Made by a program: the position numbers and the translations under genes. The notes beneath the pieces are model-generated. The model saw only the letters and a program-made list of their open reading frames with translations. It was not told the origin of the DNA and did not search any database. A stretch of DNA of 64,000 bases from Streptomyces sp. NBC_00775 (GTDB lineage: Bacteria; Actinomycetota; Actinomycetes; Streptomycetales; Streptomycetaceae): positions 2,418,001-2,482,000 of the forward strand of contig NZ_CP108938.1 of NCBI RefSeq assembly GCF_036347135.1, read 5' to 3'. This document shows positions 31,801 to 39,624 of the stretch, in pieces. The first letter of the stretch is position 1. The number at the start of each line of letters is the position of its first letter.

Positions 31801-31930
31801 GGGGGCCCGGCCTGCGCCGCAGCTGCGGGCCGTCGCGCTCGGCGAGCCGGGCGGTGAGGGCGGCCCGCTGGGCGGGGCTGAGCCGGGCGAGCCGGCCGGC
31901 CAGGCGTGACTTGTCGACGGGCGCGCTCAC
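28802..31930 (-). CDS. NRPS protein C-T-E without an adenylation domain
   Basis: A 1042-residue NRPS. A helical N-terminal linker (about 5-32) precedes a C domain (about 45-480) whose active site reads PHSFVDQ (the catalytic His185 and Asp189 kept, first His and Gly changed). A T domain follows (FFTSGGTSLLAV, Ser near 543). Last comes an epimerase-like domain (about 600-1000: SHLVIDGMSW near 723, GYYSAPFP, VIVNYVGEL). There is no A domain, so its carrier must be loaded in trans, for example by the stand-alone A enzyme at 44287-45894. An E domain implies a D-configured residue. The GTG overlaps the upstream stop. Confidence 0.9.
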   Translation of the reverse strand: MSAPVDKSRLAGRLARLSPAQRAALTARLAERDGPQLRRRPGPRDRFPLGMDQERLWILDQLDPGTTTYTLGYGLRVAGAFDLDTFTRAADAVVLRHELLRANAESEGGRPYLRVHQDRRAEISYADLSAADPSQDSDERIERRRQEFIAEQVRRPFDLARDPVLRLAVAKVAEGDHQIVETMPHSFVDQWSYVRLNDELLEHYRALSEDREPQVAELPVQFGDWAHWQRERFAGPHGERHREFWRTFLDGVPERLALPYDHSPDTADHAGEHYGFILDREVGLAFAARARAARTTPATAMTAAYAALLYERTGLRDLVVGIPAATRGEPETTPLIGFLLTSIPLRIRLPENPTPNDVLTATAAAAAAVADHREVPFGEIVQAVAPDRSATRHPLLQTMLVQLDIDDSKALGLPGAEVYANAVPEGVSTMDLTTAWWQVGDVVYGRMEYRTALFDRATVASLTGRLLQIVEQFAERPDEPLRRPAPRPAQPPVSLLSPPAEAGPRAEPGRAGDEDLSRVTDAWCEVLGTDRAAPEDVFFTSGGTSLLAVRLAHRLREAGFTATLKDVFTHPVLGRLAETLGARRAGAPQSGPVPAAGPLGPEQEMLLGRGLDRVESFAHSYVLEAAGPLDADRLRDAARAVVRAHPTLTTAYQPAAGSGELGPRIVPGEAWRWSAEPAGADPERVVAAQRADFDLTAGVLFAVSHLPGASGAPDRVVLGASHLVIDGMSWGIVIADLARGYRGEPLTGEKAGYAEHAAAVRALDPAPHAAYWRAQLAGAGAYRWSLDGPNVYGGERQFEVEVELPAEWHGPLEAVTLTAVARALRPWAPDEQASYWLIGLGRDPLAALPGWDPDRAVGYYSAPFPLRVPLTGGSAADDLRATAAALRAVPDSGKTFGLLGCAADARLREEFAALGEPRVIVNYVGELADPANGTGGLFTRSTETAATGNEDVERPVDVDVAIALRDGALVLRWLHNPDAVDPEAVRATAELAARELRDLLNAPQQPQDPDGVPGVTGVMEETMERLFERLSRERRDRQGVRR

Positions 31931-33084
31931 GCGGACACCTCCGGGATCAGGGCCGGCTGGTCCGGCGCGGCGGTCGGAGCCGGTGCCGTGCGCAGGCCGA
32001 ACAGTGCGGGCAGCGCGGCGAGGACGTCGGCGGCGGGCAGGCCGAAGTCGACGAGGCAGCCCACCTCGTCCGCGCCCGCGGCGGCCAGCTCGGCGAGGAC
32101 GCCGCGGGCCTTGGCGGGGGAACCGAGCAGGGAAGGGCCGGTGAGGAAGTCCAGATAGGCGCTCTCCACGAGGACCTCGTCGTCCCCGCCGCCGGTCTGG
32201 TTGCGGAAGGACCGCAGATAGGCGTGCATCGCCGGGCGCAGGAAGTCCTCCAGGTCGTCCCGCTCACTGACGTACGCGTGGGCCATGACCACCACGTCGC
32301 CCTCGCCGGGGTGTCCGGCGTCCCGCCAGGCCTGCCGGTAGTGGGCGATGTTCTCGCGCAGCGCGGTCATCGTCTGGCCGAGCAGCGCGGTCATCACGCC
32401 GTACCCGGCCCGGGCCGCGTCGGTGAAGGTGCGCCGCGTACCGGTCGCGGTGAGCCAGACGGGCAGCTCGGCCGTGACCGGGCGGGGACGGGTGCGGATC
32501 TGCGGGCTGGTGCCCGCGGTGGAGGGGTAGGGCAGGGCGTCGCCGCGCCACAGGGCGCGGATCTCCTCGATGGACCGGAAGGTGGTCTCGCGCCGGCCGG
32601 CGTAGTCGGTGCGGGCCAGGACGAAGTCATCCGGGTGCCAGCCGCTGGCGAAGGAGATCCCGGCCCGGCCGCCGGAGAGGCTGTCCACGAGCGCCCAGTC
32701 CTCGGCGACGCGCGCCGGGTGGTGCAGTGGTGCGGCCACGCTGCCCGCCCGGATCCCGATGGAGCGGGTACGGGCGGCCACCGCGGCGGCGAGCACCGCC
32801 GGGTTGGGGGAGAAACCGCCGAAGTCGACGAAGTGGCGCTCCGGCAGCCAGACCGCGTGCAGTCCCGCCTCGTCGGCGCGGGCGGCGGCCTCCAGGACGA
32901 ACGGATAGTACGCGGACGCGTCGGCGTGGTCGGCGCTCGCGAAGAAGTACAGGCTGTGCCGCAGCCGGGCGGGCGGCGCGGTGGCCGCCTCCGGCTGCCG
33001 TGTCTGCCGGGCCCGCAGGCCCGAGCTCAGCCTGCGCCGCTGTTCGGGGGTGAGCGCGCCGAGGCGCGCGGAGAGGTCACTCAT
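31927..33084 (-). CDS. Discrete luciferase-like (LLM) flavin monooxygenase of the natural-product type
   Basis: A 385-residue LLM-fold flavin-dependent monooxygenase of the MupA/Atu3640 group normally found as a domain inside NRPS/PKS proteins. Diagnostic segments are HSLYFFAS, VWLPERHFVDFGGFSPNP, GIRAGSVAAPLHHP and SFASGWHPDDF. Here it is a separate protein. Its first 30 residues (SARLGALTPEQRRRLSSGL) resemble a module-linker helix, much like the N-terminus of the C-T-E protein downstream. It likely acts on a carrier-bound keto intermediate made by the PKS module, whose gene it overlaps by eight nt. The outcome (hydroxylation or oxygen insertion) cannot be read. Confidence 0.88.
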   Translation of the reverse strand: MSDLSARLGALTPEQRRRLSSGLRARQTRQPEAATAPPARLRHSLYFFASADHADASAYYPFVLEAAARADEAGLHAVWLPERHFVDFGGFSPNPAVLAAAVAARTRSIGIRAGSVAAPLHHPARVAEDWALVDSLSGGRAGISFASGWHPDDFVLARTDYAGRRETTFRSIEEIRALWRGDALPYPSTAGTSPQIRTRPRPVTAELPVWLTATGTRRTFTDAARAGYGVMTALLGQTMTALRENIAHYRQAWRDAGHPGEGDVVVMAHAYVSERDDLEDFLRPAMHAYLRSFRNQTGGGDDEVLVESAYLDFLTGPSLLGSPAKARGVLAELAAAGADEVGCLVDFGLPAADVLAALPALFGLRTAPAPTAAPDQPALIPEVSA

Positions 33085-36000: not shown

Positions 36001-36205
36001 AGCCGGCGCCGTCCGCGCCGACGGAGTCCGTGCGGACGGCGGCCGGCAGGCTGACGGTGCCGGCGACCAGGGACGCCCAGAACTCCTGCGGCTGCGAACT
36101 CCCCGGCACCCGCAGGGACATGCCCACGACGGCGACGGCGTGGTCCGCGGCGCCGGAGCCGGGGCCAGTGCCGTCCGCGTCGTTCACGGTGTGCTGGTCG
36201 CTCAC
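33077..36205 (-). CDS. Type I PKS module KS-AT-T
   Basis: A 1042-residue polyketide module. KS (about 20-440) has the active Cys in QTACSTSL and the two His motifs VETHGTGTQLGD and KPNIGHCD. AT (about 540-830) has GHSVGEL, and its substrate segment reads RAFHS, the malonyl-type AFHS pattern. A carrier domain ends the protein (FFDLGGTSLHA, Ser near 978). No KR, DH, ER or methyltransferase is present, so it should add one malonyl unit and leave a beta-keto group. The GTG start overlaps the NRPS stop, with AGGAGGAAGC upstream. Confidence 0.93.
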   Translation of the reverse strand: MSDQHTVNDADGTGPGSGAADHAVAVVGMSLRVPGSSQPQEFWASLVAGTVSLPAAVRTDSVGADGAGSDAPGKPPTRAGQIDRYDRFDAELFGMLPAQAAATDPQHRVLTELAWHALEDAGIDTTRTADRVGVFVGCGTDAYFRDHVLKDEKTVRALGPEQLALGNSRDFLATGLSYRLGLTGPSITVQTACSTSLVAVHQAIRSLLTYECDIAIAGGATVHTSQDPAYEYTEGGITSPDGRCRAFTRGSAGTVPSSGAGIVVLRRAADLPDTGERARALLLGSAVNNDGGDRMSQTAPSPTGQTEVLREALAAAGLDPHDVGYVETHGTGTQLGDQVELSALAEVYGRSAAQPALALGSVKPNIGHCDTAAGVIGLIKAVLAVEAGVLPPTPAQPGDGPDADLGSPRFELPRTARAWPADRPRTAGVSSFGLGGTNCHVLLTRAPESAPESAPADVTPSTVVLSAADSRALRHKARDLTAWLDGPGAEVPLDVLAGTLWHHRRVLPERWAVTLPADPSAARQRLRSALTTLAEEGGGRRAEPEPLLGVVLPGQGIDLAAAGARLADADPEFAADLAELASVVRDAGGPDLGDARDWPAGDPRLLDTAVVQPLLFVLGLSGLRLLERRGIRPGLLLGHSVGELTAAAYAGVFTVEDAAAAVVHRGRLMAAAEPGAMAAVRAGESLAVELSAGLDVDVCLLNGPDNTVCGGPEEALAAFEERCREAGVRTTRLPATRAFHSRMMARAAREFTEFVATLPASAPAVPVLSGLTGAPLTGQEATDPAYWGRQLESPVRFADAVTALLDARPAAVFGLHRANALTALVRQAARGAGRDPLVVDAAGRAPQGGAAADEPAELRAALAALWTAGYPLPAPARPAEAVPLPGYPFADDRHWVAAPADEPTAGGAQDPYASPAQAWSAKDVTHQAPDTAAGPGDIPAGADAEETTADAVRRIWAEAFGVTHLRTEDNFFDLGGTSLHAAQLVSVVNDALLVEVRLQDLYEHSSLAGFTARIDELAAQRDDAELLRLLEEIEAESGQHDE

Positions 36206-39200
36206 GCTTCCTCCTGGGGGTGGCGCCCGGCGGGGGGCGGACCGATGACGGCCGCGAGTCGGCGCGGGGTCGGGTTGCGGAAAATGTCCTTGAGCTGGGA
36301 GCCGGTGAAGCCCGTCGAGCGCTGCAGGGCGTTGAGCCGCACGGCGAGCAGCGAATTGCCGCCCATCTCGAAGAAGTTGTCGTCCACGCCCACCGGGACG
36401 CCGAGCAGTTGCTGCCACACCTCGCACAGCTGGTGCGCGGTGTCCGGCGTGTCCGCCGTGCCTCCGGCCCGGGGTGCGGCGGAGTGCGGGCCGGACGAGG
36501 CCGGTAGTGCGGCTCGGCCGGACGGTTCCTCGGCCGGCCGGGCGGGCGCCTGCCGGGGTGAGGGGGCGGGCAGCCGGGCCGCGTCGAGTTTTCCGTTGGC
36601 GGTCAGCGGCAGCGCGGGCACCACGGTGAGCGTGGCGGGCAGGACGTGCGCGGGCAGCCGCTCGGCGAGCCACTGCCGGATCTCCGCCGTGTCCGCCCGC
36701 TGTTCCGGGGTGACCAGATAGGCGTCGATCCGTGCGGCGGCCGCGTCGTGCGCGTCGCGGACGACGGCCGCGGCCGCCGTGACGGCGGGATGGGCGAGCA
36801 ACGTGCCGCGGATCTCGCCGAGTTCGATGCGGTGGCCGCGGATCTTCACCTGGTCGTCGAGACGCCCCAGATGCTCCAGCTCCCCGTCGGGCAGCAGCCG
36901 GCCCCGGTCCCCCGAGCGGTAGAGCAGCTCGTCGGGGCGTTCGGCGAGCCGTCCCCGGACGAAGCGCCCTTCGGTCAGTTCCGGGCGGTTGAGGTACCCG
37001 GCGGCCACACCGGCGCCGCTGACATGGATCTCCCCGGGAACGCCGGGGGCGGCCGGGCGGCCCTCCTCGTCCAGGACGTACAGCCGCCAGCCCGGCAGCG
37101 CCCGGCCCACCGAGCGCGTGCCGCTCAGCGCGTCGGCCCGGGTGAGGGTGCGCCAGGTGCAGTGCACGGTGGTCTCAGTGATGCCGTACATGTTCACCGC
37201 CCGGCAGACACGCTCCGGGTAGCGGTCGAACCACGGAAGCAGCAGCGCGGGTTCGAGCGGCTCACCGCCGAAGATCAACAGCCGTACGGACAGCGGGACT
37301 TCGGCACTCTCGTCGGCGGCTAGGGCCTGTGTCGGAAGTGGCGTCGTCCGCCCGAAGGGCGGGCCGGGCGGCGTCCGGTGCGTGCTCTCGGCGTGCCGGG
37401 CGGAAGCCCTCGTACTGGACGTACTTGGGCTTTCGCCCGGTGCGGCGAGAGTGCGTGCCGGGCGTCGGCCGGCAGGCGCCACTTCCGACACAGGCCCTAG
37501 CAACTGGGCGAAGGCGGAGGGCGTCTGGTTGAGCACCGTGACGCGCTCACGGGCGAGCAGGGCGTGGAACCGCTCGGGGTCGCGGGCGCTCCAGTGCGGT
37601 ACGACGATGAGCCGCCCGCCGGTCAGCAGGCAGCCCCAGATCTCCCAGACCGAGAAGTCGAAGGCGAAGGAGTGGAAGAAGGACCACACGTCGTGCTCGT
37701 CGAAGGCGAAGCCCTCGGGGCCGGCCGTCGCGGCCAGCAGGGCGGTGACGTTGCGGTGCCGCACCAGCACGCCCTTGGGGGTGCCCGTCGAGCCCGAGGT
37801 GTGGATGACGTAGGCCACGCGCTCCGGGTCGGCGGCGGGCAGCTCACGGCCCGGCCCCGTGGGGACGGCCGTGGGCAGCAGCAGCGTCAGGCCCGGCGGC
37901 AGCAGGGCGGGGTCGCGGTCGGTCACGGCGGTGGCGAGGCCGGTGTCCTCGGCGATGAAGGCGAGCCGGTCCTGGGGGTAGCCGGGGTCCAGCGGAACGT
38001 AGGCGGCACCGGCCTTCAGTACGGCGAGCAGCGCCACGACGAGGTCGAGGCCGCGCTCCAGGCAGACGCCCACCCGGTCGCCGGGCCGTACGTCCCGCTC
38101 GGCCAGGGCGAGGGCGAGCGCGGTGGAGCGTTCGTCGAGCTCCTGGTAGGTCAGCCGTTCGTCCTCGCAGACGACCGCGGTGCGGTCGGGCAGCCGGGCG
38201 GCCCGGGCGGCGAACAGCGTGGGCAGATCGGCCGCGGGGGCGGTGAAGGGGTTCGCCGAGGGCGCGCCGCCCGGTTCCTCGGGCGCCCCGGTGGGCCCCT
38301 CGGCGGTCAGCAGGCGGGCGCGGGCGGCGGGCGGCAGGACGGAGAGTTCGCCGAGCGGGGTGTGCGGTTGTCCGACCATGGCGGTGAGCGTGGCCTCCAG
38401 TTGGCGGCAGAACTGTTCGGCCGCTCGGGCGTCGACCCGGTCGTGCCGGTACCGCAGCAGCCCTCGCAGCTCCCCGCCCAGGTCCTGGCGGAGATAGAGG
38501 GCGAGCGGGAACTGGGCCGGGCCGAAGCCGGGGTCCGGGAGCGGGTGGGCGGTGAGGTCCGGTGCGGTGATCTCCGGCAGGGTCCGGCAGGGGACCACGA
38601 CCAGGGACAGTCCGGCGCGGTCGGTGGCGGGCAGCACGGACGACAGCGGCAGATCGGCGTCGCGGTACGCGTCGAGGCAGCGGCGGTGCGCGCGGCGCAG
38701 CCAGTCGGCGACGGACTGCTCGTCGTCCAGGTCCAGCGGGACCGGCACGGTGGCGTTGAAGTAGCCGACGGTGGAGGCATGCCGCGGGGTGCGCCGTGAC
38801 ACGGCCGCCCCGAGCACCGGGCGGGTGGTGCCGCTGTTGCGGCCGAGGACCAGGGCCGCGGCGGCGGTCATCAGGGAGTGCTGGGTGATGCCCAGCTCGG
38901 CGGCGAGCTTGGCCGCGCCCTCCCAGGACTCCTCCGGGACGCGCAGGCCCACGGCCTCGTCGGGCGCCGTGGCGGTGGGGGCCGGTCCGCCGGCCGGGGT
39001 GCGGGCCCAGTCGAGCGAGCAGGACACCCCGCCCGCCAGTTCGGCGCGCAGGGCGGCGGCCCGTTCCTCGCGGGCGGGCGGCAGTTGATGCCGGCCGTCG
39101 GCCCAATCGGCGAAGGACTGGACCGCGGCGGCCTCCTCGCCGGCCAGCAGCCACTGGGCGATGAGTGCCATGGACGTCTCGTCCACCACCAAGTGGTGTG

Positions 39201-39624
39201 CGGTCAGGACGAGATCGGCGGTACGGGGGGTGTAGCGGACCAGGACGGCATGGAGCAGGGGACCGCGCTCCAGGTCGAACGGGCGCAGCACCTCGCGCCG
39301 CAGCCGGGCGCGGGCGAGCGGGCCTTCGGGGTCGACCGGGGCCGTCATGGTGTGGAGCCGCGGAGCCCGCCGCGCCGGGGCGAACAGCAGGGCACCGTCC
39401 CGTTCCGCGACCCGGGAGGCGAGCAGCGGATGGGCGGTGAGCAGCCGTGCGAACCGGTCGCGCAGCAGCTCCTCGTCGAGGGCGCCGTCGACGCGGTGGA
39501 CGAGTGAGGAGTTGTACGTGGCGGGGAACTCGGCCTGCTGGTCGGCGGCGTAGAGATCGGCCTGGCCGGGGGTCAGCCGGTGCGTGGCCCCGTTTTCCTG
39601 GTCTCCCTGGTGCCGCTCAGCCAT
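36202..39624 (-). CDS. NRPS module C-A-T, threonine-type A domain interrupted by an in-frame MITE-like element
   Basis: A 1140-residue NRPS. The C domain (about 10-430) has HHLVVDE at 143-149 (final Gly replaced by Glu). The A domain (about 470-1000) has VIHTSGSTGTPKG, FGGEPLEP, YGITETTVHCTW, YRSGDRGRL and NGKLDAARL. My hand-read code D-F-W-N-I-G-M-V-H-K is the canonical threonine code. The T domain Ser is about 1091 (FFEMGGNSLLA). Residues about 709-767 are a 59-residue Ser/Thr/Pro/Arg-rich insertion encoded by the palindromic element at 37320-37500, between motifs A4 and A5. Removing it restores a normal QLL-AADES junction. Whether the enzyme is still active is unknown. The start overlaps the carrier gene by eight nt. 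Confidence 0.93.
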   Translation of the reverse strand: MAERHQGDQENGATHRLTPGQADLYAADQQAEFPATYNSSLVHRVDGALDEELLRDRFARLLTAHPLLASRVAERDGALLFAPARRAPRLHTMTAPVDPEGPLARARLRREVLRPFDLERGPLLHAVLVRYTPRTADLVLTAHHLVVDETSMALIAQWLLAGEEAAAVQSFADWADGRHQLPPAREERAAALRAELAGGVSCSLDWARTPAGGPAPTATAPDEAVGLRVPEESWEGAAKLAAELGITQHSLMTAAAALVLGRNSGTTRPVLGAAVSRRTPRHASTVGYFNATVPVPLDLDDEQSVADWLRRAHRRCLDAYRDADLPLSSVLPATDRAGLSLVVVPCRTLPEITAPDLTAHPLPDPGFGPAQFPLALYLRQDLGGELRGLLRYRHDRVDARAAEQFCRQLEATLTAMVGQPHTPLGELSVLPPAARARLLTAEGPTGAPEEPGGAPSANPFTAPAADLPTLFAARAARLPDRTAVVCEDERLTYQELDERSTALALALAERDVRPGDRVGVCLERGLDLVVALLAVLKAGAAYVPLDPGYPQDRLAFIAEDTGLATAVTDRDPALLPPGLTLLLPTAVPTGPGRELPAADPERVAYVIHTSGSTGTPKGVLVRHRNVTALLAATAGPEGFAFDEHDVWSFFHSFAFDFSVWEIWGCLLTGGRLIVVPHWSARDPERFHALLARERVTVLNQTPSAFAQLLGPVSEVAPAGRRPARTLAAPGESPSTSSTRASARHAESTHRTPPGPPFGRTTPLPTQALAADESAEVPLSVRLLIFGGEPLEPALLLPWFDRYPERVCRAVNMYGITETTVHCTWRTLTRADALSGTRSVGRALPGWRLYVLDEEGRPAAPGVPGEIHVSGAGVAAGYLNRPELTEGRFVRGRLAERPDELLYRSGDRGRLLPDGELEHLGRLDDQVKIRGHRIELGEIRGTLLAHPAVTAAAAVVRDAHDAAAARIDAYLVTPEQRADTAEIRQWLAERLPAHVLPATLTVVPALPLTANGKLDAARLPAPSPRQAPARPAEEPSGRAALPASSGPHSAAPRAGGTADTPDTAHQLCEVWQQLLGVPVGVDDNFFEMGGNSLLAVRLNALQRSTGFTGSQLKDIFRNPTPRRLAAVIGPPPAGRHPQEEA
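37320..37500. mobile_element. MITE-like palindromic element inside the NRPS A domain
   Basis: Perfect 24-bp terminal inverted repeats (37320-37343 and 37477-37500, beginning CTAGGGCCTGTGTCGG) bound the element. The interior is also an imperfect palindrome centred near 37415, so one strand could fold into a single long hairpin. CTAG at each end may be target duplication or part of the repeat; it cannot be told apart. The net insertion is 177 nt. It encodes no transposase. Its ends suggest mobilisation by an IS5-like transposase elsewhere in the genome (inference). Confidence 0.85.

Follow-up and report, generated by a model that had tools for sequence, protein, structure and literature searches.

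The 64,000-nucleotide stretch of Streptomyces sp. NBC_00775 DNA analysed here (contig NZ_CP108938.1, positions 2,418,001 to 2,482,000; hereafter the window) contains a 181-bp near-perfect palindrome (37320..37500, both flanking CTAG copies included) inside a nonribosomal peptide synthetase (NRPS) gene. The element belongs to a repeated family with relatives elsewhere, is missing from the close orthologues of its host protein and has CTAG borders, and its ends resemble those of the IS5 family of insertion sequences (ISs). We consider it very probable that it is a non-autonomous miniature inverted-repeat transposable element (MITE) that was inserted at a CTAG of the NRPS gene by a transposase of the IS5 family, with duplication of the CTAG, and that it is read through there, as members of its family are in many other Streptomyces proteins.

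A palindromic element within an NRPS adenylation domain

The element ends in perfect 24-bp terminal inverted repeats that include the CTAG. The left arm (37320..37343, + strand) resembles ends found at the IS5-family loci L213 and L217, and the right arm (37477..37500, − strand) is its perfect partner. The CTAG copies at 37320..37323 and 37497..37500 are the presumed 4-bp target duplication; the right copy supplies the codon CTA (Leu709) of the NRPS, and the orthologue proteins are consistent with one CTAG at the site before the element arrived. As DNA, the element folded over nearly its whole length and reached −97.5 kcal/mol, compared with −46.75 ± 3.08 for 200 shuffles, none of which folded as well (z = −16.5), so the palindrome is not due to chance. 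The inverted ends, borders and near-palindromic interior described in a first-pass annotation of this DNA were thus borne out by sequence and fold energy. A search of Rfam returned three sub-threshold matches to the element. The top one, mir-3158, scored 39.4 bits (gathering score 97) and was judged a chance hairpin match.

The element has no coding capacity for a transposase. Its CTAG-to-CTAG distance is 177 nt, or 59 codons, and the open reading frame (ORF) of the NRPS (36202..39624, − strand) crosses it without a stop, as the first-pass annotation had stated. The insert is read through because 177 is 3 × 59 and because a CTAG within a gene cannot sit in the phase that reads TAG. All four frames possible for a CTAG target within a gene are open in this copy, and the remaining two have stops solely within the CTAGs. 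Four open frames were seen in 7.4% of 2000 dinucleotide shuffles of the element, which is unusual for such a composition but not extreme.

The host protein of 1140 aa has a condensation – adenylation (threonine-type) – carrier protein order, with Pfam matches to Condensation, AMP-binding, AMP-binding_C and the carrier domain. The AMP-binding domain (residues 471-878; 36991..38214, − strand) contains the insert at residues 710-768. When the 177 bp are removed, the gene reads AQLLAADESAEV and has a single terminal stop. The rejoining of QLL with AADES predicted by the first-pass annotation is therefore seen both in the insert-free reading, AQLLAADES, and in all five close orthologues (P0002-P0006). 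These have AQLLAADESA at the site, followed by E in four and by D in P0005, and none of them carries the 59 residues there. P0003-P0006 (1076-1078 aa) are insert-free and are 95-98% identical to the window's NRPS in the best segment. In P0002 (Streptomyces sp. NBC_01615, 1160 aa) a longer family member of 82 residues is fused in frame within the condensation domain, after VPLD. The protein sequence at either insertion place is compatible with a CTAG in the phase CTA-G. Because one family has hit this gene twice, at different places that are each empty in other alleles, mobility is the plain reading.

The adenylation domain was modelled with AlphaFold2 (window 36400-38400, − strand, 31 homologues). 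The insert had a predicted local distance difference test (pLDDT) score below 50 (model residues 304-357) and was flanked by helices 294-301 and 359-365. In ten-residue blocks, most of the domain core scored 85-99; the block just after the insert scored 65, and the overall mean was 76.7. The model thus depicts the insert as a disordered loop, and the protein, presumably produced, would have gained a hydrophilic 59-residue stretch between two adenylation-domain helices. The closest solved fold to the model was THR1 of 4-chlorothreonine biosynthesis, and the specificity letters, read by eye, were DFWNIGMVHK, which we take to be a threonine code. The assignment to a threonine adenylation domain in the first-pass annotation agrees with both, and its placing of an in-frame MITE in a loop of that domain agrees with the further copies, the read-through ORF, the domain match and the model.

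The insertion may instead have inactivated the NRPS despite the kept frame, making it a recent pseudogene whose open frame is luck, 177 being a multiple of three and stops being few in GC-rich DNA. We regard this as possible, if somewhat improbable. The shuffles that are open in all four usable frames show that such luck is not rare, 38 of 64 CTAG-bounded copies of the family are multiples of three, and the insert sits within a catalytic domain; the high identity to the orthologues implies a recent insertion, so decay would not yet be visible. On the other side, the rest of the ORF is intact with a strong AMP-binding match, the insert is modelled as a separate disordered loop, and the orthologue P0002 has likewise retained an in-frame insert; these observations concern sequence and predicted structure.

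The neighbourhood of the NRPS gene (25164-46994) contains more NRPS and polyketide synthase (PKS) genes, a luciferase-like monooxygenase gene (31927-33084), a thioesterase gene and a separate adenylation gene.

Copies, ends and candidate helpers

The genome of NBC_00775, a single 11.1-Mb contig, has four other places that match the element at E ≤ 1e-4 and two weaker ones. Element DNA was matched at E ≤ 1e-3 in 206 of 246 sampled genomes of the genus, NBC_00775 included; about 152 of these (hand count) reached E ≤ 1e-10 and the remainder were weak. Three candidate places were scored per genome in this search, and its counts are of genomes, not copies. Full-length relatives were up to 97% identical. 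Among 72,556 plasmid records 33 matched, 31 from Streptomyces and 2 from Embleya. The further genomic copies proposed by the first-pass annotation were thus found. Palindromes can be hard to sequence, but an assembly or sequencing artefact at this one has a negligible chance of being the explanation: its relatives occur in many genomes, some in one contig, as is the case for NBC_00775 itself, and the peptide occurs in separately deposited proteins.

We oriented 113 copies, the window's own included, and searched them for ends. CTAG was found at both borders in 64 of the 113, with a CTAG-to-CTAG length of 177 bp in 25, 175 bp in 15, 165 bp in 10 and other values in 14; 26 of these 64 would shift the frame of a host gene. 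In 23 copies a 100-bp core (37368..37467 in the window) was 95-97% kept, and the 20-bp ends matched those of the window at 6-14 positions, where about 6 are expected by chance. Examples are L141, L144 and L145 (TGCCGCGGCAGGCAACG...) and L163 (GGGGTGTCTGGTGGATC...). Since the copies were collected by similarity to the window's element, a shared core is expected among them; freely varying ends are not. The genome of NBC_00775 alone has three copies with three different ends, and across the family a count by eye gave at least eight kinds of end around one core. We read this as an apparent exchange of ends around a constant core.

Some copies had other borders. A core copy in the genome of NBC_00775 (L010 about 880-1100; C1:2540459) has ends GGTCCTGGGGAAG.. 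and no CTAG, which may reflect another mobilising system or decay. CTGG/CCAG in some copies and CCAG/CTGG in others replaced CTAG (L029, L030, L031, L037; L019, L103); these borders repeat in inverted and not in direct orientation. Three minimal palindromes, each about 60 bp long (L215 1501-1564, L220 1501-1564 and L223 3-62) consist of little beyond two CTAG-bordered ends.

Candidate helpers were sought among transposase genes. The genome of NBC_00775 has 27 matches to PF13340, an IS4/5-type transposase domain, of which 22 were above the cut-off. When inverted repeats alone were used to locate IS ends around these 27 matches and L017, most pairs looked like chance; L191 was the convincing one. 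Its CTAG ends, GGCCTGTTGCGAAAGTGG (left) and GGCCTGTTGTGAGAGTGC, are separated by 1154 bp, and the left one is also one end of the copies L025 and L155. In another genome, L217 encodes a 291-aa IS5 transposase (NF033580, 245.5 bits against a cut-off of 110; PF13340 and PF01609) between CTAG ends 1.49 kb apart, and its right end equals the window's for 21 bases from the CTAG onward. At L213, a transposase-like ORF recognised by motifs only adjoins an end with one mismatch in 22 to that of the window. The window's end pattern, with at most one mismatch, was present in 15 of 392 genomes.

Several results weigh against a MITE carried to this site by such an element. The two ends of L217 agree with each other at 17 of 24 positions, no convincing right end was found for L213, and the analysis found no IS of which both ends match those of the window. 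Nor was DNA of the empty site recovered, since a close orthologue of the NRPS gene was present only in NBC_00775 among 392 genomes of the genus, and a sample of 199 relatives, which overlaps with these, gave only NBC_00775 and five genes at 74-76%. Scanning of the NRPS protein against genome contigs yielded 27 loci with best segments 24-53% identical and no near orthologue. The first-pass annotation had expected an IS with the same ends, and this stands in part: IS5-family elements with similar ends exist, and none matches on both sides, so that the helper is assigned by end similarity. Because IS5-family ISs share similar ends and CTAG borders with the element, a MITE moved by an IS5-type transposase is still the best reading. 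Judged by these ends, the helper is likely of IS5 type, and the transposase that moved the window's copy would have been one of this kind.

An IS5-type element (L217 29-1522 and L016 1501-2060) has an extra 176-aa gene beside its transposase. This gene had no Pfam or NCBIfam match. A retained end with the same gene was seen by eye in the genome of NBC_00775 (C1:10436708), with no transposase motif seen within 3 kb.

Genomic location, host proteins and reading frame

Most copies are apparently intergenic. A coding-like frame flanked the element on each side in 47 copies; the flanking genes converged in 31 of these and diverged in 1. Such a placement would suit a hairpin regulator or bidirectional terminator multiplied by recombination and not by transposition. 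We hold this origin to be very improbable. CTAG sites themselves avoid genes (away from the elements at the same loci, 1 of 34 fell in coding sequence, compared with 621 of 858 random positions), so that target choice can explain the location; the CTAG borders, transposon-like ends and presence or absence among orthologues indicate transposition. The copies are therefore probably mostly intergenic because CTAG is nearly absent from genes, and this scarcity can explain most of the habit. In the whole window CTAG occurs 10 times, compared with about 24 expected from its trinucleotides. The in-frame share, 6 of 105 classifiable copies, was not below the CTAG target share in coding sequence. Copies that landed between convergent genes may have terminator activity.

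We searched 5.8 billion proteins with the insert region in the frame used by the NRPS (m0), with hosts limited to 627-1995 aa. The insert peptide was found in 32 other proteins of many families, P0002 included, and these were from Streptomyces or Kitasatospora wherever named. Host families included ABC transporters, GH13, MurJ, CydD, PKS and a penicillin-amidase-like protein. Hosts with other ends (LGRVAKV.., LVPRQATF..) were recovered through the same core frame. The DNA copies add, by eye, a ketosynthase (L178) and a membrane protein (L172). Many inserts lie in linkers. In the ABC transporters P0122 and P0135 the insert separates the membrane part from the ATPase part, and in P0125 it separates two domains. 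A domain scan of 30 hosts (the window's included, and two from the search with other frames described below) placed the insert within one Pfam match in five (P0001, P0136, P0138, P0142 and P0146) and between two parts of one domain in three (P0126, P0148 and P0151, judged from coordinates and neighbouring motifs). The insert was near the N-terminus in P0127 and P0141 and at the C-terminus in P0129.

All 33 host proteins, the window's included, read the element in frame m0, which is expected for the 32 because the query was m0. A query with the other three frames recovered at least five proteins (two p0, three m2 and no p2) among 7966 candidates scored. That search was less sensitive and its hosts were about 546-1736 aa, and the two sets of counts are not strictly comparable because candidate scoring and length ranges differ.

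A frame-blind check was made on the 105 classifiable DNA copies (113 minus five without clear ends and three too near a contig end). Coding frames were called by a classifier trained on 20 window ORFs; tested on 100 segments from this same set of ORFs, it gave the right frame for 92. Both 150-bp flanks were coding on one strand in 11 copies. Six of these were read through stop-free, all in m0. The remaining five, which contain a stop or whose flanks differ in phase, are therefore at gene ends or disruptive. Four of the six in-frame copies also passed with longer flanks. With 300-bp flanks, 4 copies were in frame, 1 was in the same phase with a stop, 0 were out of phase and 1 had opposite strands, while 27 had one side coding and 72 neither.

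The four usable frames were each open in 12-15 of 26 representatives, compared with 27-38% in shuffles, and all four together were open in 4 of 26, compared with 1.3% of shuffles. Among the peptides of the four frames, that of m0 is poorest in order-promoting residues, and it lacks Cys and Trp. These results, together with the 33 hosts in m0 against 2, 3 and 0 in the other frames, the six of six in the DNA sample and the recovery of members with differing ends by the same core frame, could mean that the element itself is selected for translation, its main frame having been shaped into a disordered linker that proteins tolerate and so adapted to genes. We think this unlikely. An m0 query itself favours m0, and, as noted, the query with the other frames is not strictly comparable. 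Among the 25 copies with 177 bp between the CTAGs, which mostly lie outside genes, m0 was open in 14 and p2 and m2 in 23 each, counts that weaken the idea; many genome copies have a stop in m0, and the frame-shifting lengths counted above also speak against it. Selection acting on each copy after insertion accounts equally well for the bias, and the m0 excess in proteins looks like such selection because m0 is open in fewer 177-bp copies than p2 or m2. One family has thus been read through in many unrelated Streptomyces proteins, mostly in one frame; under the favoured reading, a MITE moved by an IS5-type transposase, the surviving in-frame copies would reflect selection against insertions that break or misfold the protein.

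Relation to known repeats and significance

The nearest known system is the Rickettsia palindromic element (RPE). Passages of PMC2229807 and PMC10969869 describe RPEs as palindromic repeats of 105-146 bp that lie in frame in many unrelated protein genes and also between genes, and they report an RPE-bearing guanylate kinase that was active with a changed substrate affinity. A table of PMC2229807 gives the RPE target duplication as a question mark. The Streptomyces palindrome is likewise in frame in many unrelated protein genes, although it belongs to another phylum with another GC content, shows CTAG borders, has likely IS5-type helpers and carries several ends per core. The likeness is one of way of working, and sequence homology is not claimed. 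A Wolbachia counterpart of RPE reportedly exists, going by the title of a paper.

Like the MITEs of IS5-family ISs, the element is short and transposase-free, with IS5-like terminal inverted repeats, a short target duplication and many copies. It differs from them by at least eight ends on one core and by recurrent in-frame fusions with host proteins. ERIC, Correia/NEMIS and RUP are hairpin repeats of many copies, several with terminal inverted repeats and TA ends according to the table in PMC2229807; going by their descriptions, the Streptomyces element is set apart from them by sequence, and the hosts differ. In-frame fusion is not new in itself, since a 2024 review (PMC10969869) says that it is 'not unusual' for MITEs lying within genes to be fused in frame to genomic ORFs. 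The review also calls protein change of the Rickettsia kind driven by MITEs 'conceivable' in other prokaryotes. In titles and abstract openings, mostly from outside subscription journals, we found no report of such an element or of in-frame MITEs in Streptomyces. Three features stand out: fusions recur within a single family spread across the genus, one frame predominates, and the ends change. The recurrence in other proteins, the bias and the differing ends around one core go beyond the first-pass annotation.

The element may give proteins a floppy loop rather than truncate them. A broader and more tentative proposal, which we rate below an even chance, is that Streptomyces, and some Kitasatospora, would carry a genus-wide modular mobile hairpin. 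Its 100-bp core would keep swapping ends for different IS5-type transposases, and its preferred frame would encode a disordered Ser/Thr/Pro/Arg-rich linker. It would then be a natural linker-insertion mutagen of proteins, megasynthases included, outside Rickettsiales.

MITE-driven protein change is seen here in Streptomyces, which is free-living and tractable. Host enzymes can be named, orthologues without the insert offer natural controls, and there are plausible helpers. The old question of whether such inserts are neutral, harmful or useful thereby becomes directly testable by enzyme assay. Different terminal repeats on a constant core raise the question of how non-autonomous elements outlive their helpers. 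In genome mining, predictions for adenylation and ketosynthase domains may encounter such inserts.
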